A stretch of DNA of 64,000 nt from Dolomitihabitans soli (GTDB taxonomy: Bacteria; Actinomycetota; Actinomycetes; Streptosporangiales; Streptosporangiaceae): NCBI RefSeq assembly GCF_022213955.1, contig NZ_JAKNTW010000035.1, forward strand, positions 62,001-126,000, given 5' to 3'. Under the pieces are notes generated by a model that worked only from the letters and a program-made list of their open reading frames with translations, was not told where the DNA came from and ran no database searches. Both the position numbers and the translations under genes were made by a program. Below are positions 3,514-32,107 of this stretch, in pieces (positions within the stretch are counted from its first letter, which is position 1; every line of letters starts with the position of its first letter).

Positions 3514-4788
3514 TCACTGCCAGTTCTCGCTGCGAAGGTCGTCGGCGACGAGTTTCGCGGCGGCGTTCTGCCAGTTGTAGAGCGTGCGTTCGGGAACATG
3601 CCGGGCGAACCAGTCGAACGCCTGCCGCTCCACCGGGTCGAGCAGGTCCCGGCTGGCACCCCGCCGGTAGGGACGCAGGCCACGGACATAGGGGAAGAAG
3701 AGGACGTTGTAGTAACGCCACTCCTCGCTGGTGCCGAACTCGCCGTCGCGTGGCCTGAGCCGCTGGATGCTGTCCAGCAGCAGGCGCTTCAACTCCGAGG
3801 CCCGTTCCAGCGGGCTGTCGCCGGTGACCTGCTTGTCGATCACTGGCAGGTTCGCCAGCGGGCTGCTGGCGAGCTTCCCCAGATCGCCGTAGTTGGCCAG
3901 GGCGCGCCGCGTCAGCCGTACGAACTCGGTGTCGTCGAGGGGCGGTGGGCCCTCCTCGCGGCGCGGCAGCGCCTCGGACGTCGCCCGCAACTCGGCCCGC
4001 TCCCGGCGCATCGCGGGGGCGCCGGGGAAGGCCACCCGGTCGAGCAGCCGATGCACGGGACCGGCGAGCGTCTGTACGGCGACGGCCACCGCGATCACCC
4101 CGAAGAGCAGCGCGACCAGCGCGAAGGACGGCTCGCCCAGCGCCATCGCCAGTGCGACCTGACCTCCCGAGGCCATCGCCACGACCACGGCTCCCAGCAG
4201 CGAGCGCGCCATGTCCGCCCAGAGCGCCTCGCCTGCCCGGTGTGCGTTCGACATGGCGATCGCCACCCCGAGCAGGGCCATGTCCAGGTCGATGGCCAGG
4301 AGCAGGGTCAGATCGCGTGGCCCGAACAGCAACGCCGCGCCGAGCCCGAAGAACAGCGTGGCCACCGCCGCCAGCCACCACACCCGCGCGGGCCTGTCCA
4401 GCACCAGCAGTATGAGCGCGCCCGCCAGCGGGGCCAGCAGCAGCACCTTGACCGCGGTATCCCCGCCGCCGGAGACCGCCAGCCAGCCGATCGCCACCAG
4501 CGAGACCGGCGCCAGCCCCCACGACCACACCCGCTCCAGCCGCTCCCGTCCGGGGACCAGCGCCAGCGCCGCCCCCGTCCACAACACCACCGGCAGGCAG
4601 ACGAGCACCGTCTCCACCCGGCCGAGCGCCTCCGGCCTCCCCGGCAGCGCGGCGACGGCGAGTGCCAGGGCGTAGACCAGGATGCCCAGCCCGGCACGGC
4701 GGGACCTTCGCTCGCCCGGCTCCCGCCCGATGACATAGAGGCCCAGCCACCAGGTGAACCCGAACACGACCCCGACCACGTAGACCAC
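3514..4788 (-). CDS. Polytopic membrane protein with a soluble C-terminal domain
   Basis: About 424 residues. The first 270 hold roughly nine hydrophobic helices starting VVYVVGVVFGFTWWLGLYVI; the last 150 are soluble and charged, with PPPLDDTEFVRLTRRALANY, then EEWRYYNVLFFPYVRGLRPY and a tail ending RSENWQ. I do not know this family, although a membrane sensor is plausible. The frame is open upstream through the antisense of the TetR gene, but that part is arginine-rich shadow, so I place the start at GTG 4788 near the first helix; a GTG three codons later is equally possible. It follows the TetR gene on the same strand after 107 bp. Confidence 0.7.
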   Translation of the reverse strand: MVYVVGVVFGFTWWLGLYVIGREPGERRSRRAGLGILVYALALAVAALPGRPEALGRVETVLVCLPVVLWTGAALALVPGRERLERVWSWGLAPVSLVAIGWLAVSGGGDTAVKVLLLAPLAGALILLVLDRPARVWWLAAVATLFFGLGAALLFGPRDLTLLLAIDLDMALLGVAIAMSNAHRAGEALWADMARSLLGAVVVAMASGGQVALAMALGEPSFALVALLFGVIAVAVAVQTLAGPVHRLLDRVAFPGAPAMRRERAELRATSEALPRREEGPPPLDDTEFVRLTRRALANYGDLGKLASSPLANLPVIDKQVTGDSPLERASELKRLLLDSIQRLRPRDGEFGTSEEWRYYNVLFFPYVRGLRPYRRGASRDLLDPVERQAFDWFARHVPERTLYNWQNAAAKLVADDLRSENWQ

Positions 4789-5673: not shown

Positions 5674-6177
5674 GTGGTCGAGATACATCTGCGGGTGAAC
5701 GGGGTCACCAGGTCGCTCGACCTCGAACCCTGGGTCAGCCTGCTGGACGCGCTCCGCGAGCGGCTCGATCTCACCGGCACGAAGAAGGGCTGCGACCAGG
5801 GCGCGTGCGGGGCCTGCACGGTGCTGGCCGACGGCGAGCGGATCAACTCCTGCCTGGCCCTGGCCGTGCAGTACGCCGGCCGTGAGATCACCACGATCGA
5901 GGGCGTCGCCCATCCGCTGCAGGCCGCGTTCGTGCGCCACGACGGTCTCCAGTGCGGCTACTGCACCTCGGGGCAGATCTGCTCCGCCCTCGCCATGCTG
6001 GCCGAACACCGCGCGGGCGCGCCGAGCGCGGTGACCGGGGATCCGGCCGCGACCGGCGTCGAACTGTCCCGCGCGGAGATCGCGGAACGGATGAGCGGCA
6101 ACCTGTGCCGCTGCGGCGCCTACAACGGAATCGTCAGCGCCATCCAGGAGGTCGCCGAGATGGAGACCGCGCGATGA
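5674..6177 (+). CDS. paoA: Aldehyde oxidoreductase, [2Fe-2S] subunit (PaoA/YagT type)
   Basis: Small electron-transfer subunit of a xanthine-oxidase-family molybdoenzyme, 167 residues. The plant-type cluster is bound by Cys in [13 protein letters not shown] (residues about 39-51) plus SCLALA; the second, helical cluster is bound by QCGYCTSGQ and [11 protein letters not shown]. The GTG start at 5674 follows GGAG by seven bases and removes an unlikely N-terminal extension. The gene overlaps the next by ATGA. Order 2Fe-2S, FAD, Mo subunit is that of paoABC (yagTSR) rather than xdhABC of fused types. I see no Tat signal, unlike E. coli PaoA, so the enzyme may be cytoplasmic. Confidence 0.9.
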
Positions 6178-19631: not shown

Positions 19632-21170
19632 ATGAGATCACGTACGGCCCCGCAGCTCCCGCGCCCACCGCATCGTCATCGTCTGATCGCCGTCGTGATC
19701 GCGTCGATCGTGCTGCTCCTGGCTTCCTGCGGAGGCCCGGACAGCGGTAATGACGCCCCCGGCGGCAAGCCGGAGCCCGCGCATCCGGGGACGGCCATGG
19801 CCCCCGTTCCCCAGGATTCCGGAACGCCCGGCCCGCCCGGCGAGGATCCCGGGCGGCTGTCCACCTTCGCGCTCGACGTCGACACCGCGTCGTACGGCTA
19901 CGCGCGCAGCGCCATCAACGAGGGGCGGCTGCCGGAGCCGGACCGGGTGCGGCCGGAGGAGTTCGTCAACTCCTTCCGGCAGGACTACGCGGAGCCCGAG
20001 GACGACGGCTTCGCCGTACACGTCGACGGGGCCCGGACGGCCGAGAACGGGACCGCGCTGCTCCGCGTCGGCTTGCAGACCCGGCGGGTGGCCGCCACCG
20101 CGCGCAGGTCCGCCAACCTGACCTTCGTGGTGGACGTCTCCGGCTCGATGGCCGAACCGGGCCGGCTCGACCTCGTCCGCGACGCCCTGCACACCCTCGT
20201 GGACCAGCTCGCACCCGGCGACCAGGTATCGATCGTGTCCTTCAGCGACGAGGCCAGGCTGGTCGCGCCGATGACCCCGGCCACCTCGCGCGCCGCCCTG
20301 CACGAGGCGATCGACTCGCTGTCCGTCGAGCAGTCCACCAACCTGTCCGCCGGGCTGGTGGCCGGGTACCAGGAGGCGGCGAAGAGCTACCGGCGGATCG
20401 CCACCAACCGGGTCATCCTGCTCTCCGACGGGCTGGCCAACACCGGCGAGACGAACTGGCAGGCCATCCTCGACCAGGTCAGCGAGCACGCCGCCAAGCA
20501 GATCACGCTGCTCTGCGTCGGCGTCGGCCGCGAGTACGGCGACGAACTGATGGAGCAGCTCGCCGACAACGGCGACGGCGCCGCCGTCTACGTGAGCTCC
20601 CAGGACGAGGCGCGCAAGGTCTTCGTCGACCAGCTCGCCACCACCCTCGACCTGCGTGCCCGTGACGCCAAGGCCCAGGTCGCCTTCAACCCCGCCGCCG
20701 TGGAGTCCTACGGGCTCATCGGGTACGAGAACCGGGCCCTCGCCGCCGAGGACTTCCGCGACGACTCCCAGGACGGCGGCGAGATCGGCCCCGGCCACTC
20801 CGTGACCGCCCTCTACCGGGTACGGCTCCGCGCGGGCGCCACCGGCCAGCTCGCCATGGCCACCGTACGCTGGCAGGACCCCGACAGCCGGAGCCCCGCG
20901 GAGGCCAGTGAGGCCGTCGAGGTCAAGGACCTGTCCGCCGACCTGTGGCGCGAGTCGCCCGCCCGCCTCCAGATCGACGCCGTCGCCGCCGACTTCGCCG
21001 AACACCTCCGCGGCGGGCCCCGGCAGGACGGCGTCGCCGCCGCCTCCGTCTCCGCTCCCACCGCCCTCGCGGACCTCGCCGACCACGCCTCCCGCCTCGC
21101 GGAGGGCACCGAGGACCCGGCCGTGACCGAGCTCGCCGCACTGATCAGACGGACCGCCGAGCTGCGCTGA
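19632..21170 (+). CDS. von Willebrand factor A domain lipoprotein (YfbK-like)
   Basis: 512 residues. The leader ends LLLASC with Cys33, a lipobox. Next comes a linker rich in Pro and Gly (to about 75), the family N-terminal domain (FALDVDTASYGYARSAINEG), a vWA domain with MIDAS DVSGS at about residue 168 and Thr in STNLSAGL, and a C-terminal DUF3520-like region. The protein is probably displayed on the outer face of the membrane and binds a partner through a metal ion; its process is unknown. GGAGG lies six bases before the ATG at 19632. Confidence 0.9.
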   Translation: MRSRTAPQLPRPPHRHRLIAVVIASIVLLLASCGGPDSGNDAPGGKPEPAHPGTAMAPVPQDSGTPGPPGEDPGRLSTFALDVDTASYGYARSAINEGRLPEPDRVRPEEFVNSFRQDYAEPEDDGFAVHVDGARTAENGTALLRVGLQTRRVAATARRSANLTFVVDVSGSMAEPGRLDLVRDALHTLVDQLAPGDQVSIVSFSDEARLVAPMTPATSRAALHEAIDSLSVEQSTNLSAGLVAGYQEAAKSYRRIATNRVILLSDGLANTGETNWQAILDQVSEHAAKQITLLCVGVGREYGDELMEQLADNGDGAAVYVSSQDEARKVFVDQLATTLDLRARDAKAQVAFNPAAVESYGLIGYENRALAAEDFRDDSQDGGEIGPGHSVTALYRVRLRAGATGQLAMATVRWQDPDSRSPAEASEAVEVKDLSADLWRESPARLQIDAVAADFAEHLRGGPRQDGVAAASVSAPTALADLADHASRLAEGTEDPAVTELAALIRRTAELR

Positions 21171-21256: not shown

Positions 21257-21329
21257 GGGGCTATGGCGCAGTTGGTAGCGCGCCTCCATGGCATGGAGGA
21301 GGTCTGGGGTTCGAATCCCCATAGCTCCA
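21257..21329 (+). tRNA. tRNA-Ala, anticodon GGC
   Basis: A 73-base cloverleaf: acceptor GGGGCTA with TAGCTCC (one G-T pair), D stem GCGC/GCGC, anticodon stem CCTCC/GGAGG with loop ATGGCAT (GGC at 34-36), and T arm TGGGG-TTCGAAT-CCCCA. The discriminator is A; the CCA end is not encoded. Confidence 0.96.
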
Positions 21330-23256: not shown

Positions 23257-24168
23257 TCAGGCGTCGGCTTGGTCCACCGGGCTGCGGGGGCGGAGGGCAC
23301 GGCGGAGGTCATCGGCCGAGGACAGCTCCGGCGTGCCGATGGGAGAGGGCAGATCGGCCGGGCTGGTCTCCCGTGCCGCGGACTCGCTCTCCGCACCCTC
23401 CTTGCCGCCGCCGCCGCTCGGCCCGGCCCGGTCGAAGAAGCGCAGCAACTCGACGGGGAAGGGCATCACCAGGGTGGAGCTCTTCTCTGCCGCCACCTCC
23501 ACCACGGTCTGCAGGAGGCGAAGCTGCAGGGCGCCGGGCGTCTCGTGCATGATCGCCGCGGCGTCCGACAGCTTCTGCGCGGCCCTGAACTCGCCGTCCG
23601 CGGTGATCACGCGGGCCCGGCGTTCGCGCTCGGCCTCCGCCTGGCGGGACATGGACCGCTTCATGTTCTCCGGAAGCTGGACATCCTTGATCTCCACGCG
23701 GTCGAGGTGGATGCCCCAGCCGAGCGCCGGACTGTCGATCATGAGAGCCAGTCCCCTGTTCAACTCCTCGCGGTTGGACAGCAGGTCATCCAGTTCACTC
23801 TTCCCGATGATCGACCTCAGGGAGGTCTGGGCCACCTGCTCTACCGCGAACAGATAGTTCTGCACGTAGATGGCGGCCTTCATCGGATCCTGCACCCGGA
23901 AGTAGACGACGGCGTCGACACGCACGGAGACGTTGTCACGGGTGATGCCCTCCTGGGTGGGCACCGGCAGCGTGACGATCTGGATGTTGACCTTCTTCAG
24001 CCGGTCGACGACCGGGACGAGCAGGGTGAGCCCCGGCTGGCGGAGTTCCGGCAGGGCCCTCCCGAACCGGAAGACGATGCCCCGGTCGACCTGGTTGATG
24101 ATCCTGGTCCCACCGAGCGCGAGGGCGACGCAGATCGCGAGCAGCCCAAGGATGATATAGGTGAGCAT
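23257..24168 (-). CDS. Slipin (stomatin-like SPFH/band-7 membrane protein)
   Basis: 303 residues. One N-terminal membrane helix (MLTYIILGLLAICVALALGG), then an SPFH domain: RGIVFRFGRALPELRQPGLT, RDNVSVRVDAVVYFRVQDP, LRSIIGKSELDDLLSNREEL, and the coiled-coil DVQLPENMKRSMSRQAEAER ending near residue 210. The C-terminus is a charged, disordered tail. Slipins oligomerise at the membrane and scaffold other proteins. An excellent ribosome site, GGAGGTGACC, sets the ATG at 24168. It is divergent from the TROVE-like gene; in several other bacteria slipin genes sit with Ro60/rtcB RNA-repair genes, which supports a functional link here. Confidence 0.92.
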   Translation of the reverse strand: MLTYIILGLLAICVALALGGTRIINQVDRGIVFRFGRALPELRQPGLTLLVPVVDRLKKVNIQIVTLPVPTQEGITRDNVSVRVDAVVYFRVQDPMKAAIYVQNYLFAVEQVAQTSLRSIIGKSELDDLLSNREELNRGLALMIDSPALGWGIHLDRVEIKDVQLPENMKRSMSRQAEAERERRARVITADGEFRAAQKLSDAAAIMHETPGALQLRLLQTVVEVAAEKSSTLVMPFPVELLRFFDRAGPSGGGGKEGAESESAARETSPADLPSPIGTPELSSADDLRRALRPRSPVDQADA

Positions 24169-24591
24169 TTTGGTCACCTCCGTATCAAGCCTAAGTCCGA
24201 ACGGCGAGCCGAGAGGCCAGCGAAAAGTCAAGTCACCGCAGGTGAGAGCCCGGGACCCGGCCTCCGGCACGCCATGGTGGCCGCCCGCCGACACCCAGAG
24301 GACACGTGCCCCGACGGCCGGATGGCATCGACCCTGATCGCCGGCTTCGACGCCCGCCGCGCTCGGCCTTCGGCGAGCCCGCCACGGGGGCTCCGGCTGG
24401 ACAGGGCCGGTTCGGTCGCCTGCTCGCCGAATGCGGATATATCCCTTTCTCGGGCCGTGGTGCGCGCTGGTAGGGTCGCGGATCAGACCGGTCGCGGGAC
24501 TTCGGCGCGACTTCCGGAAACCGTTTTGCAAGCGATGCTTCGCAGTTCGTTCCCTCATTCCCCGGCCGGTCCGCCAGCCATTGGGGGGCCG
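24169..24591. other. Divergent intergenic region, possible promoter or RNA site
   Basis: 423 bases between the slipin and TROVE-like starts, with no protein-like frame. It contains a perfect palindrome GGATATATCC (24435-24444) in a rare AT patch and a 13-base hairpin TCACCGCAGGTGA (24233-24245). In known bacterial Ro60 loci a Y RNA gene lies next to the Ro gene; I could not recognise one here by eye. Confidence 0.4.
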
Positions 24592-25965
24592 ATGCGCGTC
24601 GATACCGACTTGATCGAGTGCGAGGACGTGCTGCTCTTCGCGAACGCGGCGATGGCGGCGACCGGCCAGCGCGAGTTCCGTGACGCGGGGCACGAGCAAC
24701 AGCTCTCGCTCGACTTCCTGCACCGCTACATCCACGGCAACTATCCCGACGTCTATGCCGCGATCCTGGCGCTGGACATCAACGACCACAACGCCGCGCT
24801 GATCATCCGCAACGTGCTGAGGGAGCCGCGGGGCGGTGACGGAAGGCTGATCGCCTGGCGGCTCACCCGGATGAGCCCGCCGCGGGTCTACCGGCTGTTC
24901 CAGGGGCTGCGGCGCGACGGGATCAACAACCGGCGCACCAGAGCGATCATCCGCGACTGGCTGGCCACCCGCCCGGACCTCGCCTTCGACGCGGTCAAGT
25001 ACCGCTCAGGGCTGAAGGCGGCGGTACGGCACGCGCATGTCGAACTCACCGGCGAACTGGGCGACTTCCTGTTCGCGCCGCGCAGCCGTACCCGCTTCGA
25101 GACTCCCATTCTGGAGGCGTGGCGCCGCGCCCACTACGAGAAGACGGTGCTGTACGAGCTGCCGTACACGGTCGCGGAGGGCTTCGCCGCGCGCCACGGG
25201 ATCAGCCGGGCGACCTTCCTGGAGCGGATCACGCCTCGGCTCACCCGGCTGGAGCGATTGAGGATGACCGAATCGGCAGGGAAGGACGGCGTGGACACCA
25301 GGGCCGACCTCGCCGCCCTGCCGCTGGTCCGGCTGGCCTCCTACGTGCTCTCGCTGCCCGCCGGGGAACGCGGTGCCGAGCACGCCGCCGCGCTGCGAGC
25401 GTCGGCCGCCCGATCGGCGGGCTCGCGCGCGGGCACGTGGGGGAGCGTCACGGCGGTCCTGGACGACAGCTTCTCGTCGTACGGCTCGCCGGTGAAGCGC
25501 CGCCGCCCGCTGGCCGTAGCGCTGGCCTGCCACTACCTGCTGGAGGCGCTGGCCGGGTCGTACCGCGGCCTGTGGCTCTCCCGGCGCGCCGACCCTCTCC
25601 TGGTGCGCCCGGCGGGCCCGACGCCGCTGGGCCATCGGATCATCGACGCCCTCGAACAGCGCCCGGACCGGCTCGTCATCGTCTCCGACGGCTGGGACAA
25701 CGCGCCGCCCGGTCTGGCGGCGGAGGTGCTGCGCGTCTGGCGGCGCAGACTCGACCCGGCGAGGAAGGTCGGCATCGTGCACCTGAACCCGGTCTACGAC
25801 GCCGAGCGGTTCGAGGTGCGGCGGCTGTCTCCAGCGGTGCCCACGGCCGGGATCCGCGACGCGGAGGATCTGCCCGCGCTGGTGGAACTGGCCGCCTTCG
25901 CCGAGGGCCGCACCGGCCTGGACGAGCTGCGCGCCTACCTGGAGGACAGGGCGGCCCGGCGATGA
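24592..25965 (+). CDS. TROVE/Ro60-like protein with a vWA domain
   Basis: 457 residues. The N-terminal 270 are helical repeats; TRPDLAFDAVKYRSGLKAA (about residues 127-145) resembles the VKYR-type stretch of TROVE (Ro60) RNA-binding domains. The C-terminal 190 form a vWA domain with a complete metal site: D291-x-S293-x-S295 in LDDSFSS, T344 in GPTPLGHR and D366 in VIVSDGWDN. This is the Ro60 domain order. Start ATG 24592 follows GGGGGG. The TGA overlaps the next gene by ATGA. Ro-like proteins bind misfolded or damaged small RNAs; that role here is inference, and a non-TROVE HEAT-repeat protein with a vWA domain is the alternative. Confidence 0.6.
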   Translation: MRVDTDLIECEDVLLFANAAMAATGQREFRDAGHEQQLSLDFLHRYIHGNYPDVYAAILALDINDHNAALIIRNVLREPRGGDGRLIAWRLTRMSPPRVYRLFQGLRRDGINNRRTRAIIRDWLATRPDLAFDAVKYRSGLKAAVRHAHVELTGELGDFLFAPRSRTRFETPILEAWRRAHYEKTVLYELPYTVAEGFAARHGISRATFLERITPRLTRLERLRMTESAGKDGVDTRADLAALPLVRLASYVLSLPAGERGAEHAAALRASAARSAGSRAGTWGSVTAVLDDSFSSYGSPVKRRRPLAVALACHYLLEALAGSYRGLWLSRRADPLLVRPAGPTPLGHRIIDALEQRPDRLVIVSDGWDNAPPGLAAEVLRVWRRRLDPARKVGIVHLNPVYDAERFEVRRLSPAVPTAGIRDAEDLPALVELAAFAEGRTGLDELRAYLEDRAARR

Positions 25966-27080
25966 TCGACCTCGCGGGACTGACGACCCGCCCCGCGCAG
26001 ACCTGGGGATCGGTACGGCTGGTGCCTCTGGAGCGGTCTGCTCCGATCGAAGATCTGCGGCTGGACGCCAAGATCTACGGCGAGGAGCCATCCATGGTCT
26101 CCCTGCCGGACAAGACGACCTACACCGCCTACATCCCGCATGCCTTCGTGGCCTCCTGGACCGACGACGGCACGCCGGCCGCGGCGTACGGCACGCAGTT
26201 GGGCCGGCCGCTGCGGCACATGTCCGTCAGGACCCATCGCCGGTCGGCGCGGCGGGCGGACAAGAACCGGCTGCGTTTCCTGCCCCTGCACCTGGCGTTG
26301 GAGGGCTTTCTCGCGCTGCACTTCGGCGGCCCGACGATCGCCTGGGAGGAGTGGTCGCACCGGGCGGTCGCCCATGGCCTCTCCCCCCGGGCCGAGGAGG
26401 CGTACAGCGGAGCGCAGATCAGCGGGCTCGACGACGCGCTCCGCGTCTTCGAGATCTACCCGCGTCAGTGCGGCCTGCTGCTCTATGTCGGCGACACCCT
26501 GGCCAGCGCCTTCGTGGTGCCGCACCCGGAGGACTACCGGGCGCTGCACCCCACGCTGATCCGCGACCTGTACGGCGAGCTGATCTACGAGTACGCCCTG
26601 TTCTACCCCGCCGGCGACTTTCCGGCCGTGATCGACGAGACCAAGGTCTCCTCCCTGGCCGACCTGCGACGCGAGGCGCTGGGACACGAACGGGAGTGGG
26701 CGGGTTTCCATGACTCGGTCATGGCGGGGGGCCTGCTGGACGCACCGGAGACCGTGACCGAGATCTACCGGCTCGGCCGCTTCACCCTGCGGCGTTTCCT
26801 GCCCTCGTTCGAGCGGCGGCGCGAGAACCACATCGGTGAGATGATCACCGATGAGGCCGGGCGGACGGCCTACCTGAAGACCTTCCGGCTCTCGGAGGCG
26901 CAGCGCCGGCGTGGCCACCTGCTCAGCAGGCTGGCCGAGCACGACTGGAACCTACGGGACACGGCCACCGCGCTCGGCACCGACGAGCCCGCCCTGGGGC
27001 TGCGGCTGGAGCGGGCCGGTTTCGGCTACCTGCTCCGCCAGGACGTCCTCGACGCCTACCGCAAGGCCGGACGCCGCTGA
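25962..27080 (+). CDS. Unfamiliar conserved protein coupled to the TROVE-like gene, C-terminal HTH
   Basis: 372 residues, soluble. It begins with the stretch RPAQTWGSVRLVPLERSAPI and has a central domain around GLLLYVGDTLASAFVVPHPE and LIYEYALFYPAGDFPAVIDE. The end (about 321-370, LSRLAEHDWNLRDTATALGT then GLRLERAGFGYLLRQDVLDAY) has the look of a Fis-type helix-turn-helix. It may be the ARPP-2 family named in comparative studies of RNA-repair and conflict systems, but that is memory of a name, not a match I can test. ATGA overlap with the TROVE-like gene implies a complex or shared pathway. Confidence 0.6.
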   Translation: MIDLAGLTTRPAQTWGSVRLVPLERSAPIEDLRLDAKIYGEEPSMVSLPDKTTYTAYIPHAFVASWTDDGTPAAAYGTQLGRPLRHMSVRTHRRSARRADKNRLRFLPLHLALEGFLALHFGGPTIAWEEWSHRAVAHGLSPRAEEAYSGAQISGLDDALRVFEIYPRQCGLLLYVGDTLASAFVVPHPEDYRALHPTLIRDLYGELIYEYALFYPAGDFPAVIDETKVSSLADLRREALGHEREWAGFHDSVMAGGLLDAPETVTEIYRLGRFTLRRFLPSFERRRENHIGEMITDEAGRTAYLKTFRLSEAQRRRGHLLSRLAEHDWNLRDTATALGTDEPALGLRLERAGFGYLLRQDVLDAYRKAGRR

Positions 27081-27232
27081 GCCCATTCGGGGAAGCGCGC
27101 CGGATTCCGGGTGGGCTGGGTGGTCGCTCGTGACGATGGTCCGAGCCCTGCGGAGAGGGTTGTCCGCTAGGGCGGCGGGTTGTGGGAGTGCCGTAATCAG
27201 GGTGAAATCGGGCGGATGTCATTATTGGCCCC

Positions 27233-28213
27233 ATGTTGGAGGTTGCTGGGCTTGGTGAGGTGGAGGAGCGGGCGTATCGGCTGTTGGTGAAGGCGGCCGA
27301 GGCGGGGGTAGAGGAACTGGCCGGGGAGCTGGGAGCCACGGCGGAGGCGGTCACGGGCGTGTTGTCGTCCTTGCGGGAGCAGGGGCTGGTGCGGGAGACG
27401 CCGGATGGCAGGTTCGTGCCGGTGCCGCCGGACGTCGCGCTGGGGCCGAGGCTGGTGCGGCAGCAGGAGACGCTCGACTGGGCGCGCCGTACGGTGGAGC
27501 AGCTCACGGAGGAGTATCGGGGGAACGTCCGCCGCCGGGACGCCGGGCAGCTCGTGGAGGTGCTGCCCAGCAGGGCGGCGTTGCGGGAGCAGGTACGGCA
27601 CCTGCAGGACAGCGCGCGGGAGGAGGTCCTGTACTTCTGCCGGGCCGGGCACGTGGCGATGCCGTCCGCGGACAACACCGAGGAACTGGACGCGCTGGGC
27701 CGGGGAGTCGACTACCGGGTGATCTACGAGCGGGCGCTGCTCGAAGAACCGGGGATGCTGCCCAATGTGGCATACGGGATCAAACTGGGGGAGCGGGCGC
27801 GGGCGATCACCCTCCTTCCGGTGCGGATGCTGATCGCCGACCGGACTACCGCCCTGTTGCCCCTGGTGCAGCACGCGGGCGGGATGACCGAGCCGACCGG
27901 GGCGGTGGTGCGGGGGAGCAGCCTGCTCGACGCGCTGATCGCGCTGTTCGAGGAGTGCTGGGTGCGGGCGACGCCGATCAGGATCGCGGAGGACGGCGAG
28001 GTAGCGCAGACGTCGCCGTCCTGCCCGCTGGACGCCGACGAGCTGTATCTGCTGTCACTGCTGGTCGCGGGGGTGCCGGACAAGTCGATCGCCACCCAGC
28101 TCGGCCTCAGCCAGCGCACCGTGCAACGACGCGTCTACCACCTGATGGAGCTGGCCGGCGCCCAGACCAGGATGCAACTGGCCTGGCACGCGGCACGGGC
28201 GAGCTGGTTGTGA
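27233..28213 (+). CDS. TrmB-like N-terminus with LuxR-type C-terminal HTH regulator
   Basis: 326 residues. N-terminal winged helix (residues about 8-65: RAYRLLVKAAEAGVEELAGE, ATAEAVTGVLSSLREQGLVR), a middle sensory domain of the TrmB/phospholipase-D-like fold (EEVLYFCRAGHVAMPS), and a C-terminal LuxR-type HTH (about 274-310: VAGVPDKSIATQLGLSQRTV). This design is common in actinobacteria, often with unknown ligand. The ATG at 27233 is the first plausible start. It is the third gene in line after the TROVE-like pair, with a 152-bp gap that probably contains its own promoter; a regulatory link to that pair is possible. Confidence 0.85.
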   Translation: MLEVAGLGEVEERAYRLLVKAAEAGVEELAGELGATAEAVTGVLSSLREQGLVRETPDGRFVPVPPDVALGPRLVRQQETLDWARRTVEQLTEEYRGNVRRRDAGQLVEVLPSRAALREQVRHLQDSAREEVLYFCRAGHVAMPSADNTEELDALGRGVDYRVIYERALLEEPGMLPNVAYGIKLGERARAITLLPVRMLIADRTTALLPLVQHAGGMTEPTGAVVRGSSLLDALIALFEECWVRATPIRIAEDGEVAQTSPSCPLDADELYLLSLLVAGVPDKSIATQLGLSQRTVQRRVYHLMELAGAQTRMQLAWHAARASWL

Positions 28214-28435: not shown

Positions 28436-31400
28436 TCAGCGGACGCCGTAGGCCCGGGTGACGGTCTGCTTGATCTGGTTGCCGGCCGTGTCGGTCGCGG
28501 TGACCCGCAGCGAGACGCCGCCGTCCACCGCGGGGTGCGAGACCAGCGTGCTGTAGCGGCCGTTGCCGATCGGCAGTACGTGCAGCCGCTTCCAGGTCTT
28601 CCCGTCGTCATAGGAGTGCTCGGCTGCGAACGACTTGACGGAGGGCCCGGCGGTGAACTTCAGCGGGACCGGAAGGGCGCGGCGCACCTGGCCGTTCAGG
28701 TCGGCGGGGATGTCGTAGTCGACCTTGAGCAGCGGCACCGTAGTGTCCGCGGCCTTCGACTTGAAGGTCCACGCGGTCTCGGTGGCGGTGGCGTACCGCC
28801 ATTCCTCCGAGGTCCGGGTGGTCGACAGCTCCAGGCGGTACTCGGCCTCCTCGGCGACGGCGGGGAAGTCGCCGCGCAGGTTCGGCCGTTCCGCCACCAG
28901 CTCCCCGTTCCGGTAGAACCTGGCCGAAGCGGTGTCCTTGTCGCCGCTTCCCTTGGCGTACCCGTAGTGGCCGGAGGAGTCGACGAACTCGGGGATGTGG
29001 ATGGACAGCGTGTCGCCCGTCCGCTTCTGCGCGACCCCGGCCGGGACGGCGGGCCGTACGACCGCGCCGAACCAGTCTTCGCGGACCACCTTGCCCGGCT
29101 GATACGTCTGCGGCTGTTCGGTGAGCCCGCCCCTGAGCTGGCTCATCGACTCCCAGGTGTACATGTGCTGCACCACGTGCTGCCACTGGGTGTCACCGGC
29201 GCTGACGTACTCGGCGCGCTGGAGCGGGGTGCGGACGATCCGCTGGGTCTCCATCTGGAAGCCGAGGCTGTACGTCTGCCAGGGACGCCAGCCGTACCGC
29301 TGGTCCTTGCCCCAGCCGAAGCCGCCGTACTCGTGGTAGCCCGAGTCCACCCGGGCGGTGTTGCGCCAGTTGACCTCATGGACGACCTCGGCGGGGATGT
29401 GCCCCTGCGAGACCTGCATGACGTCGTAGAGGTAAGGGCTGGCGAAGGCGCCGGTCACCTCGAGTACGGCGTTGCCGGCGCGGACCTTCTCCAGCAGTTT
29501 CCGGCCGTGGTCGAAGGTCGTGTTCAGGGACGGCAGCGGGTCGCGGTCGCCGGTCGGGTTGTAGGGCTGCCACATGGCCCCGCCCTCGCGTCCCACCACG
29601 ACGATCGCCGCCGCGCCGGCCGCCGCCGCGTCGTCGATCTTCCGGTCCCAGTCGCCGGTCATGCCGCTGGCCACCACGACGGCCCGGCCCTTCAGGTCGA
29701 GCTTCGCCAGCTCCTCGGGAGTGCCCTTGCCGCCGTCGACCAGCGGCCAGCGCTTCCTGCCGTCGATCTCCGGCGATCTGATGAACGGGCGCATCGGCAC
29801 GTTCTCGTGGGAACCGGCCAGCTTGGCCGTCACCCGGGGGGCGGCGAGCTGCCAGCGGGAGGCGAACTCGAAGGTGCCGTTCTTGACCGGTTCCGTCGGG
29901 GTGACGGCGAGGTGCTCGACGGACGGGAAGTTCATGGCGCCCTGCGAGATCTTGCGGGAGCCGTACGCGCGGTGGGTGAAGTAGGTGGAGATGCCCTCCT
30001 GGATGACCGGTTCGGCCGTCTTGATCTTCACCGGGTGGGCCTTGCGCGCGTCGAGGACCACCTCCAGGTCGCCGGTGACCTTCAGTTCGGGGATGACGAC
30101 CAGGGAGTCCACCGGGTGCTCGCTCGGGTCCTCGCCCATGATGGCCTGGGTCATGTAGGTGCCCTCGGCCACCTCGACCGTGGTGCCCTCGTGCTCGCGG
30201 TTGATGAAGGTGCGGACGTCGTCGCGCTGCGACGCGCCGTACATCGAGATGACCGGGACCCGGTCGGCCTCGCCCTCCCGGTTCAGACCGGTGAAGTGCA
30301 CCTTGTGCATGCGGCCACGCCGGGTCAGGGCGAGCGAGGTGTGCGCGGAGATCGTGCCGTCGGCGGAGGTCGCGGTGACGTAGCCGGTGTGCCTGCCGTG
30401 CTGGAGCTTGGCCAGATCGACGGTCACCGGAACCTCGGCGGTGCCGCCGGGCGCCACGGTGATCGACGGCGAGCCGAGGCTGACCGCGCCCTCGGCCGGG
30501 TCGGCGCCGTCCAGGTTGTCCAGGCTCGCGGCGAGCGCCAGGGTGACGGGGGCCTCGGTGGCGTTGATGAAGACGGCCTCGCCGGCGGGGGTTCCCGGGT
30601 TGCCGTCCTCGTGCAGGCCGAGGTCGATCACCCCGGTCGCCGTCACGCCCTGCCGTACGACGCGCGTCACGTCGAGGCGTCCGCCGCCCTGCTGGTGCAC
30701 GGACTGGCCGGGGATCGTCTTGGCGGTGGAGACGAGGGCGTCCTTGAGCTGCCCGGCCCTCCACTCGGGGTGACGCTGCTTGAGGATCGCGGCGGCGCCG
30801 GCGACGTGCGGGGTCGCCATCGAGGTGCCGGAGAGCGCGGTGTGCCGGTCGTCGACCGGCTGGCCCAGCGCGGTTTCGGCGGCCCGCGCGGCGATGATCG
30901 ACACGCCGGGGGCGGTGATGTCCGGCTTGGGCGCCTCGTCGAGCCTCGGTCCCCGGCTGGAGAAGGAGGCGAGGGCGTCCGTGGCGTCGACGGCCCCGAC
31001 GGTCAGGGCCGAGGTGGCCGCGCCGGGGGTGCCGACGGTGTAGTCGCCGCCCTCGTTGCCGGCGGCGACCACGAAGAGGCTGCCGGTCTGCTCGGTCAGG
31101 GTGTCGACGCCGACGCTGAGCGGGTCGGTGCCGTCGGTCGCCGAGCCGCCCAGGCTCATGTTGACGACGTCGGCGCCGGACTGCGCGGCCCATTCCATCC
31201 CGGAGAGGATCTGCGACTCGCTGCCCGACCCCCTGTCGTCGAGCACCTTGCCGACGATCAGCTCCGCGCCCGGGGCCACGCCCTTGCGCCTGCCCTCGGA
31301 CGCCGCGCCGAGGCCCGCGACGGTGGCGGCGACGTGGGTGCCGTGCCCGTGGCCGTCCTCGGTGGAGCCGTTGTCGGTGAAGTCGCGCCGGTCGGAGATC

Positions 31401-32107
31401 TTCCCGGCGAGGTCGGGGTGCTCCTCGTCGGCGCCGGTGTCGAGGACGGCGACCTTGACGCCCTTGCCGTCGAAGCCGTCCTGCCACGCCTGCGGGGCTC
31501 CCACCTGGGGAACGCTGTGCTCCAGCGTGGCCTTGATCTTCCCGTCGAGCCAGATCTTCGACAGTCCCCGGTTCAGCCGGGGCTCGTCCGCCCCCGACGA
31601 CCTGACCTGCGCCGCGCCCCACAGGGCCGGCAGGTCATCCTTGTCCGGGGCGACCGCCTGCGCGTTGACGCTGCTCAGTGTGGTTCCCGACGTGACGCCG
31701 GGCAGGGCTCCGCGCTGCTGTCCGCCGTAGACCAGGATGAGCGGGAGGGTCGCGCTGGCCGCGTCGTCGTAGCCCTGCTCGATCAGGTCGCCGACGGCGA
31801 AGAGCCGCCGGTCGACCAGGCCACGGGCGATGTAGGGGACCATGTCGACGGGCGTGATCGTAAGGTCGCCGTCGACCTCCTGGGTGGTGAACCTGATGTC
31901 CTCCCGGCCCTTGCCCGGCCGTACGGTCGCCGCCTGCCGGCCGCCCGCGAACTGCTGGACCTCGACCACGTCACCGGTGATCAGCGTGACCTCGTGGGCG
32001 GCGCCCGCCGTACCCTCGGGTTGCTCCTCCGCTGCGGCGGGCAGAGCGGGTAAAGCCAGTAGTGAGGACGCCACGCCGACAGCGGAGAGACGCGCGAGCC
32101 AACCCAT
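28436..32107 (-). CDS. Secreted subtilisin-like serine protease (S8), 1223 residues
   Basis: A Sec signal peptide (MGWLARLSAVGVASSLLALP, cut near AAAEE), a propeptide-like domain (about 30-195), then a peptidase S8 domain with Asp223 in VAVLDTGAD, His258 in HGHGTHVAATVAG and Ser429 in SGTSMATPHVAGA. Oxyanion Asn is in VVAAGNEGGDY. About 750 residues follow: a stretch with beta-sandwich features, a PA-type insert (GRAVVVASGMTGDWDRKIDD, AAAIVVVGREGGAMW) and an Ig-like end. It resembles the large actinomycete proteases whose C-terminal regions aid substrate binding. The ATG at 32107 opens the signal peptide. Extracellular; its prodomain should keep it inactive until secreted. Confidence 0.92.
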   Translation of the reverse strand: MGWLARLSAVGVASSLLALPALPAAAEEQPEGTAGAAHEVTLITGDVVEVQQFAGGRQAATVRPGKGREDIRFTTQEVDGDLTITPVDMVPYIARGLVDRRLFAVGDLIEQGYDDAASATLPLILVYGGQQRGALPGVTSGTTLSSVNAQAVAPDKDDLPALWGAAQVRSSGADEPRLNRGLSKIWLDGKIKATLEHSVPQVGAPQAWQDGFDGKGVKVAVLDTGADEEHPDLAGKISDRRDFTDNGSTEDGHGHGTHVAATVAGLGAASEGRRKGVAPGAELIVGKVLDDRGSGSESQILSGMEWAAQSGADVVNMSLGGSATDGTDPLSVGVDTLTEQTGSLFVVAAGNEGGDYTVGTPGAATSALTVGAVDATDALASFSSRGPRLDEAPKPDITAPGVSIIAARAAETALGQPVDDRHTALSGTSMATPHVAGAAAILKQRHPEWRAGQLKDALVSTAKTIPGQSVHQQGGGRLDVTRVVRQGVTATGVIDLGLHEDGNPGTPAGEAVFINATEAPVTLALAASLDNLDGADPAEGAVSLGSPSITVAPGGTAEVPVTVDLAKLQHGRHTGYVTATSADGTISAHTSLALTRRGRMHKVHFTGLNREGEADRVPVISMYGASQRDDVRTFINREHEGTTVEVAEGTYMTQAIMGEDPSEHPVDSLVVIPELKVTGDLEVVLDARKAHPVKIKTAEPVIQEGISTYFTHRAYGSRKISQGAMNFPSVEHLAVTPTEPVKNGTFEFASRWQLAAPRVTAKLAGSHENVPMRPFIRSPEIDGRKRWPLVDGGKGTPEELAKLDLKGRAVVVASGMTGDWDRKIDDAAAAGAAAIVVVGREGGAMWQPYNPTGDRDPLPSLNTTFDHGRKLLEKVRAGNAVLEVTGAFASPYLYDVMQVSQGHIPAEVVHEVNWRNTARVDSGYHEYGGFGWGKDQRYGWRPWQTYSLGFQMETQRIVRTPLQRAEYVSAGDTQWQHVVQHMYTWESMSQLRGGLTEQPQTYQPGKVVREDWFGAVVRPAVPAGVAQKRTGDTLSIHIPEFVDSSGHYGYAKGSGDKDTASARFYRNGELVAERPNLRGDFPAVAEEAEYRLELSTTRTSEEWRYATATETAWTFKSKAADTTVPLLKVDYDIPADLNGQVRRALPVPLKFTAGPSVKSFAAEHSYDDGKTWKRLHVLPIGNGRYSTLVSHPAVDGGVSLRVTATDTAGNQIKQTVTRAYGVR

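Follow-up and report, generated by a model that had tools for sequence, protein, structure and literature searches.

Genes for known bacterial Y RNAs lie close to genes for Ro60-type proteins. Passages of PMC4030889 identify a bulged cytosine in a stem as the primary Ro60 site, retained in bacterial Y RNAs, while in passages of PMC4726728 the vertebrate site is a helix of seven bp bearing one bulged cytidine, and the precise function of Ro60/Y RNA particles is given as still unclear. Here, we describe a locus in a 64,000-nucleotide stretch of Dolomitihabitans soli DNA (contig NZ_JAKNTW010000035.1, positions 62,001 to 126,000; hereafter, the window) in which a structured RNA, termed R1, precedes a gene for a 457-aa protein with a modelled TROVE-like ring and a vWA domain (TROVE-vWA), followed by a gene for an ARPP-2 family protein. 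R1 is the main finding, and together the data point to an unrecognised RNA-protein machine, a module resembling Ro60/Y RNA with ARPP-2 as a partner.

R1, a conserved structured RNA before the TROVE-vWA gene

When sequences were aligned on the TROVE-vWA gene alone, a block of ~90 nt before the gene proved far more conserved than the DNA preceding it. Single-base insertions in some members would break a reading frame in this block, which also precedes the gene in Streptomyces, in several cyanobacteria, and in members of Armatimonadota and Myxococcota. Its consensus comprises a 9-bp terminal stem, a bulged C (present in 49 of 51 copies), 4 bp, an internal loop, an inner helix, and a hairpin with a mostly 7-nt loop, and R1 looks like a minimal Y RNA. 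The alignment was drawn from 56 matches, of which five were set aside: L001 and L007, both the window itself, together with L019, L032, and a false match in L079. Genome-search loci contributed four of the 51 copies kept, and plasmid records three.

Over these copies, 97.4% of cells pair, but this figure is tempered by the way the copies were picked, using a regular expression for the core that largely fixes columns 13-34 and 82-87 by choice; the 4 bp and the bulge fall within the selection motif, while the outer stem lies outside it. Because of this selection, the 12 pairs outside the motif were recounted. Among them, 95.8% of cells were paired, 11 of the 12 pairs had changed on both sides, and the covariation score was 0.696, compared to 0.278 for shuffled alignments (0 of 500 reached the observed value) and at most 0.263 when the pairing was slid. 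Two of the five measures in this recount were reached by a few shuffles (5/500 and 7/500). Folding energies were strong for five of six R1 copies, with z-scores from -3.1 to -5.1.

A covariance model built from the 51 copies, which match it by construction, identified R1 in the window at 24482-24575 (87.4 bits, E 1.4e-18; a copy used in building the model). The model also detected R1 in 34 of 36 sampled loci having both a TROVE-vWA protein and upstream DNA, and in all three Nostoc plasmids. Among 200 genomes of the order, R1 occurred in 65, with one copy each, and most of these matches are not among the model-building copies. In 64 of the 65 order genomes with a TROVE-vWA protein, R1 lies ahead of it in the same orientation at a distance of 1-48 nt (median 22.5), measured from the RNA match to the protein-profile match and not to the annotated start. 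Genome G357 has R1 without the protein (E 4.4e-6; no relict found), and G380 has a relict of the protein without R1. Across 296 genomes of the phylum, R1 was present in only two, the same two that carry the TROVE-vWA/ARPP-2 pair. As for known RNA families, no forward-strand match to R1 was found, the only hit over it being a reverse-strand snoJ33 match at E 2.4, and YrlA (RF02553) did not match R1 in the window, L064, L074, or L078.

The features of the locus, in window coordinates, are as follows:

24486..24571 (+): R1, a ~86-nt structured non-coding RNA, Y-RNA-like, defined by the gene-anchored conserved block, covariation, and the model match
24592..25965 (+): gene for the Ro60-like TROVE-vWA protein, 457 aa, assigned from an AlphaFold model, structure searches, and an invariant metal site
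25962..27080 (+): ARPP-2 gene, 372 aa, with a C-terminal helical (possibly helix-turn-helix) extension, assigned from Pfam PF22549 and linkage
24471..24476 (+): TAGGGT, candidate -10 hexamer, predicted from sequence alone, which would place the transcript start at about the R1 5' end
24583..24588 (+): GGGGGG, lying between R1 and the TROVE-vWA gene and possibly a ribosome-binding site, likewise proposed only from the letters
24168..23257 (-): slipin gene, 303 aa, Band_7 E 6.4e-35
27233-28213 (+): gene for a TrmB/LuxR-type regulator, TrmB E 1.5e-8, GerE E 1.6e-5

An earlier, sequence-only reading of this DNA had correctly placed all four protein genes (slipin, vWA, 372-aa protein, and TrmB/LuxR-type regulator) and proposed that they act on RNA; it missed the structured upstream RNA, which is the strongest sign of RNA function.

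R1 as an RNA gene or an mRNA leader

The position of R1 raises the tentative possibility that it is a cis-acting leader, forming the 5' untranslated region of the message for TROVE-vWA and ARPP-2 and regulating the operon when the TROVE-vWA protein or some other ligand binds it. The short distance to the protein match in all 64 order genomes with both elements, and the single copy in each genome of the order, are what would be expected of a leader. In addition, 48 copies have sufficient DNA ahead of them to look for a TAnnnT hexamer; 37 of these carry one 5-10 nt before the R1 stem, compared to 11.6 expected from shuffled sequences, and all 11 copies that lack it are cyanobacterial. Since this phased hexamer would place the transcript start at about the 5' end of R1, it fits an RNA gene and a leader alike.

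Several features of R1 in other lineages are harder to reconcile with a leader. Two or three neighbouring copies are found in 8 of 11 cyanobacterial loci (one to three per cyanobacterial genome), and runs of T directly follow the stem in L074 and L078 (T6 and T9). Moreover, in two cyanobacteria (L069, L077; genomes G546 and G550) the gene pair has no R1 nearby, and R1 is found on another contig. In G550, the TROVE-vWA gene is at least 98 kb from the contig ends, while G546, a draft assembly with short contigs, is the weaker case. In both genomes, the displaced R1 follows the same 134-aa gene and is itself followed by an unrelated one. A protein of ~134 aa precedes R1 in cyanobacteria (L064-L068, L070-L073, L132, L133), also where R1 is apart from the pair.

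In L078, from a Myxococcota metagenome-assembled genome, a YrlA-like match (5676-5739, + strand; 40.7 bits against a gathering threshold of 69; E 9.9e-8 in 421 nt) immediately precedes R1 at 5794 and is thus beside the TROVE-vWA gene as well. This match is flanked by a GGGGAGG/CCTCCCC stem and T6. Collectively, the extra copies, the T runs, the displaced R1, and the neighbouring YrlA-like match favour a trans-acting RNA, and in actinobacteria R1 could serve as a 5' leader.

The Ro60-like protein and its ARPP-2 partner

With the 457-aa protein as query, Pfam, NCBIfam, PADLOC, and PHROGs gave nothing at E 1 or better, and the PDB contained no match by sequence. An AlphaFold model was built from 24 aligned sequences (pLDDT 82.4, pTM 0.76, with residues 26-37 and 227-237 below 50), and as a whole it displays a helical ring followed by a vWA domain, the order found in Ro60. 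The top 11 Foldseek matches in the PDB were all Ro60/Rsr (E 2.8e-5 to 2.2e-3), and the top 10 VIA-align rows, spanning Z 17.0-12.7, were without exception Ro60/TROVE (382-401 residues aligned at rmsd 5.1-5.8), with alignments beginning at model residue 8-11. Rows beyond these were vWA-containing chains with Z of at most 12.0, nearly all aligned over the vWA part alone. This full-length structural match supports a TROVE-type ring, and the 457-aa protein is supported by the model as Ro60-like in fold; given that sequence profiles do not see TROVE, we refer to it as having a Ro60-like fold and not as a member of Pfam TROVE. The likeness to TROVE/Ro60 suspected by the sequence-only reading accordingly held for the fold (AlphaFold model, Foldseek, VIA-align) and failed for the Pfam profile. 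Among the 24 aligned sequences, vWA_Ro60 was matched by one (E 0.19). Alignment of the subfamily to canonical actinobacterial TROVE proteins with hhalign gave a probability of 33%, which rose to 91% once subfamily 2 (see below) was added, covering the vWA domain and the end of the helical part.

Two sequence features noted in the earlier reading were borne out: the VKYR stretch (residues 135-138) and the complete vWA metal site (D291, S293, S295, D366) are invariant in the 24 aligned sequences, and H147 and the metal-site residues are also invariant in 11 sequences from three lineages. Passages of PMC4030889 report that Ro60 H187 contacts Y RNA. Equating H147 with this residue is attractive by motif and unsupported by alignment. 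A canonical TROVE match is present elsewhere in the genome of the window (G000:C27:44349-44522, L002; E 2.6e-6).

The product of the overlapping gene had been taken for an unknown protein, but its family is known: Pfam ARPP-2 (PF22549) matches residues 2-272 with an E value of 8.6e-123 (409.2 bits, cut-off 27). ARPP-1 (PF20208) reaches 12.7 bits on this protein (E 0.081), below its cut-off of 27. Three true ARPP-1 proteins score E 4e-5 to 1.5e-4 against the ARPP-2 profile, short of the threshold for that family, and by this measure the two families look related. A Pfam search with the C-terminal 73 residues gave no family at E 10 or better. A Fis-like helix-turn-helix had been assigned to this part by eye, and four helices are indeed modelled there (block pLDDT 81-93, within an otherwise poor model), without a Pfam match to identify them. 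ARPP proteins have been proposed to process ribose or ADP-ribose in ARG-centred systems (PMC9503650, section 3.8). No ARPP-2 match was found in phage records, and no ARPP gene adjoins the canonical TROVE genes in 31 loci of about 3 kb each.

To place the gene pair, loci were collected via exact peptide patterns in a species-genome collection, which yields a sample and not a census. ARPP-2 relatives were present at 38 loci in four phyla: Streptosporangiaceae and other actinobacteria (Actinomadura, Streptomyces), 11 cyanobacterial loci, one from Armatimonadota, and two from Myxococcota. The TROVE-vWA gene lies upstream of ARPP-2 on the same strand in 37 of the 38 (in L058 only the gene end is visible), the exception being L079, a weak partial match, and the linkage of these two genes claimed in the earlier reading is thus confirmed. 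So is the ATGA overlap at 25962-25965, where the ARPP-2 gene starts inside the stop codon of the TROVE-vWA gene, the arrangement of translationally coupled genes. Among the 23 actinobacterial loci showing both genes, the 4-bp overlap was seen again in 19 (with starts chosen by script), and for that reason is no accident. In cyanobacteria, 82-1236 bp separate the two genes. Three Nostoc plasmids, two of them typed as conjugative, carry the pair, and on two Nostoc plasmids (L039, L041) xisH and xisI lie between its genes.

Among the 200 order genomes, ARPP-2 was found in 64 (62 over the cut-off), the TROVE-vWA subfamily protein in 65 (68 matched, minus G308, G444, and G476, weak matches to the vWA part only), and both in 62. 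ARPP-2 without the TROVE-vWA protein occurs in G328 and G444, while the TROVE-vWA protein without ARPP-2 occurs in G325, G434, and G484, where it is broken or at contig edges. Of the 296 phylum genomes, ARPP-2 exceeds the cut-off in only two, which are also the two with the TROVE-vWA protein. These results show that R1, the gene for the protein with a modelled Ro60-type fold, and the ARPP-2 gene form a unit of linked genes, with the protein genes overlapping in most actinobacteria.

The slipin gene and the regulator gene do not share in this linkage. In the window genome, slipin is divergent from the TROVE-vWA gene and 423 bp away, an arrangement from which it had been proposed that slipin, the Ro60-like protein, its partner, and the regulator act jointly at the membrane. 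No slipin or regulator homologue was found near the pair in 37 named loci (tblastn, E 1e-5; mostly 5-10 kb on each side), and on these grounds the two are not parts of the module and were dropped as partners. A joint membrane module is consequently very improbable, and the slipin link is possibly specific to the species and not a conserved arrangement. Thus, the conserved neighbourhood anticipated in the earlier reading was found for the TROVE-vWA/ARPP-2 genes and not for slipin beside them; the gene pair showed neither an unrelated HEAT fold nor an unconserved neighbourhood, while the place of slipin was unconserved. Flanking the region are two genes identified by eye, for a vWA lipoprotein at 19632-21170 (+) and a large subtilisin-like protease at 28436-32107 (-). 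The window also has a tRNA gene at 21257-21329 (+) (Rfam tRNA, 66 bits).

The ARPP-2 partner also invites a protein-centred explanation, in which the vWA protein is a peptide-binding chaperone, ARPP-2 is an ADP-ribose-processing enzyme, and the two serve as an ADP-ribose conflict module with RNA binding secondary. The proposal in PMC9503650 (section 3.8) names both ARPP and vWA genes, and the patchy occurrence of the pair (2/296 phylum genomes) and its presence on the three Nostoc plasmids are in keeping with such a module. However, when neighbouring ORFs of at least 70 aa were clustered at 60% coverage, none besides the pair exceeded 9 of the 40 loci, and by this clustering an ADP-ribosylglycohydrolase, phosphatase, Nudix, or WYL gene is not a conserved partner; the most recurrent neighbour (9/40 loci) is the 134-aa cyanobacterial protein, which has no Pfam match. 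Furthermore, the vWA domain forms one protein with a TROVE-like ring, and what is conserved next to it is an RNA. We consider this explanation unlikely.

Related pairs extend beyond the loci with R1. A profile search uncovered a second TROVE-vWA-like subfamily in other actinobacteria (L114-L117, L121-L123; 441-457 aa, 22-25% identical), and in L122 and L123, the two loci scanned, an ARPP-1 gene is next after it (E 2e-35 and 2e-34). The conserved block just upstream of these genes looks promoter-like and contains no R1, and the covariance model gave no R1-like RNA before ARPP-1-type pairs. In L118, an ARPP-1 gene lies near genes resembling, by eye, a WYL regulator and type I CRISPR-Cas genes. 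A third TROVE-vWA lineage is present on four IMG/VR contigs of 115-429 kb (L124-L127; L126 and L127 are near-identical), presumably large phages, with an ARPP gene directly downstream (three were scanned and matched ARPP-1 at E 6e-25 to 7e-20). R1 searched in IMG/VR by exact pattern gave zero matches. The viral pairs in L124-L126 are set amid several tRNA genes, and L126 has a weak full-length YrlA match at 4004-4110 (26.6 bits, gathering threshold 69); this match and the tRNA-like sequences just before the viral gene could be viral Y RNAs.

The proposed module beside known systems

Based on the data presented above, the explanation we favour, with a probability of roughly 0.6, is a three-part ribonucleoprotein module of R1, a Ro60-like ring protein, and ARPP-2. 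The ring would bind R1 through the bulged-C stem, as Ro60 does with Y RNA, and R1 may stabilise or gate the ring. By analogy with Ro60 biology, the ring would capture misfolded or damaged RNA, and ARPP-2 might act on, or sense, ribose or ADP-ribose groups of the captured RNA. Pairing of R1 with the protein is the most probable step of this mechanism and the chemistry of ARPP-2 the least. The module likely serves to survey or repair RNA under stress or in conflict with phages. Many carriers belong to filamentous or multicellular groups, and these carriers, together with the viral versions, fit a conflict role. An mRNA ADP-ribosyltransferase is reported to serve in phage defence (PMC11618068). 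More tentatively, the module may represent a second Ro ribonucleoprotein branch that has a dedicated minimal Y RNA. Captured RNA would then pass from the ring to an ARPP that removes ADP-ribose or other ribose-linked damage, so that bacteria could repair RNA attacked in phage conflict, with the versions in large phages as a counter-measure.

A number of observations weigh against the three-part module. R1 in the window folds only modestly better than shuffled sequences (z -1.94; 9 of 200 fold as well) and has no Rfam 15 match up to E 5, YrlA included (9 kb scanned). It was found in none of 31 canonical-TROVE loci (about 3 kb each) or seven ARPP-1-type pair loci, and not in the viral TROVE-vWA/ARPP loci. 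Pfam TROVE (PF05731) is matched neither by the 457-aa protein nor by any of the 24 aligned sequences. Profile-profile support for TROVE comes from the vWA domain and its edge; the N-terminal 275 residues alone give a probability of 0.2-0.4%, compared to 0.1-0.2% for a reversed control, and the fold evidence for this helical part comes from the whole-protein model. The KY..LVH histidine of TROVE proteins never falls in the H147 column (12/12 alignments). For the partner, ARPP-2 shows no Cys where ARPP-1 conserves one, in an alignment that is uncertain at that position, and the model of the 372-aa protein is too poor for a fold search (pLDDT 52.7).

A literature search found no paper on the TROVE-ARPP pair or R1; the source of the name ARPP-2 was not found, and an earlier mention of the pair is possible. 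Compared with the ARG-centred ADP-ribose systems (PMC9503650), the locus likewise places an ARPP-family protein beside a vWA protein and is patchily distributed. It differs in having an associated RNA, in an ARPP-2 that shows no Cys at the conserved ARPP-1 position, and in lacking a conserved ARG, phosphatase, Nudix, or WYL gene, as judged from clustered neighbours with no ARG-profile scan.

The closest solved folds are the phage-borne Ro60 of Thermus phage phiLo (PDB 9l5y) and the TROVE structure 9kop. Foldseek ranks 9l5y_A first, while VIA-align places 9kop and 9l5y_A in ranks 1-2, tied at Z 17.0 and 16.5; the 457-aa protein differs from both in sequence, with 12-13% identity over the structural alignment. 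Like Ro60/Rsr with Y RNA, the module has a protein with a modelled helical ring and vWA domain, and an RNA whose terminal stem carries a bulged C, as described for Y RNAs in parts of PMC4030889 and PMC4726728; like bacterial Ro ribonucleoproteins, it keeps the RNA gene close to the Ro60-type gene. Unlike Ro60, its protein has no TROVE profile match, and unlike YrlA, R1 shows no tRNA-like module and no family match. The module further departs from Ro60/Y RNA in adding an overlapping gene for ARPP-2, a family for which no assigned function was found and to which the module would lend a context, and the window genome has its canonical TROVE match separately. The fixed gene set makes it testable what minimum suffices for a Y-type RNA to be recognised by a Ro60-type protein, and which chemistry, if any, is coupled to the capture of damaged RNA. 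With a ring, one small RNA, and one dedicated partner across four phyla, the module looks like a compact natural version of Ro60/Y RNA.

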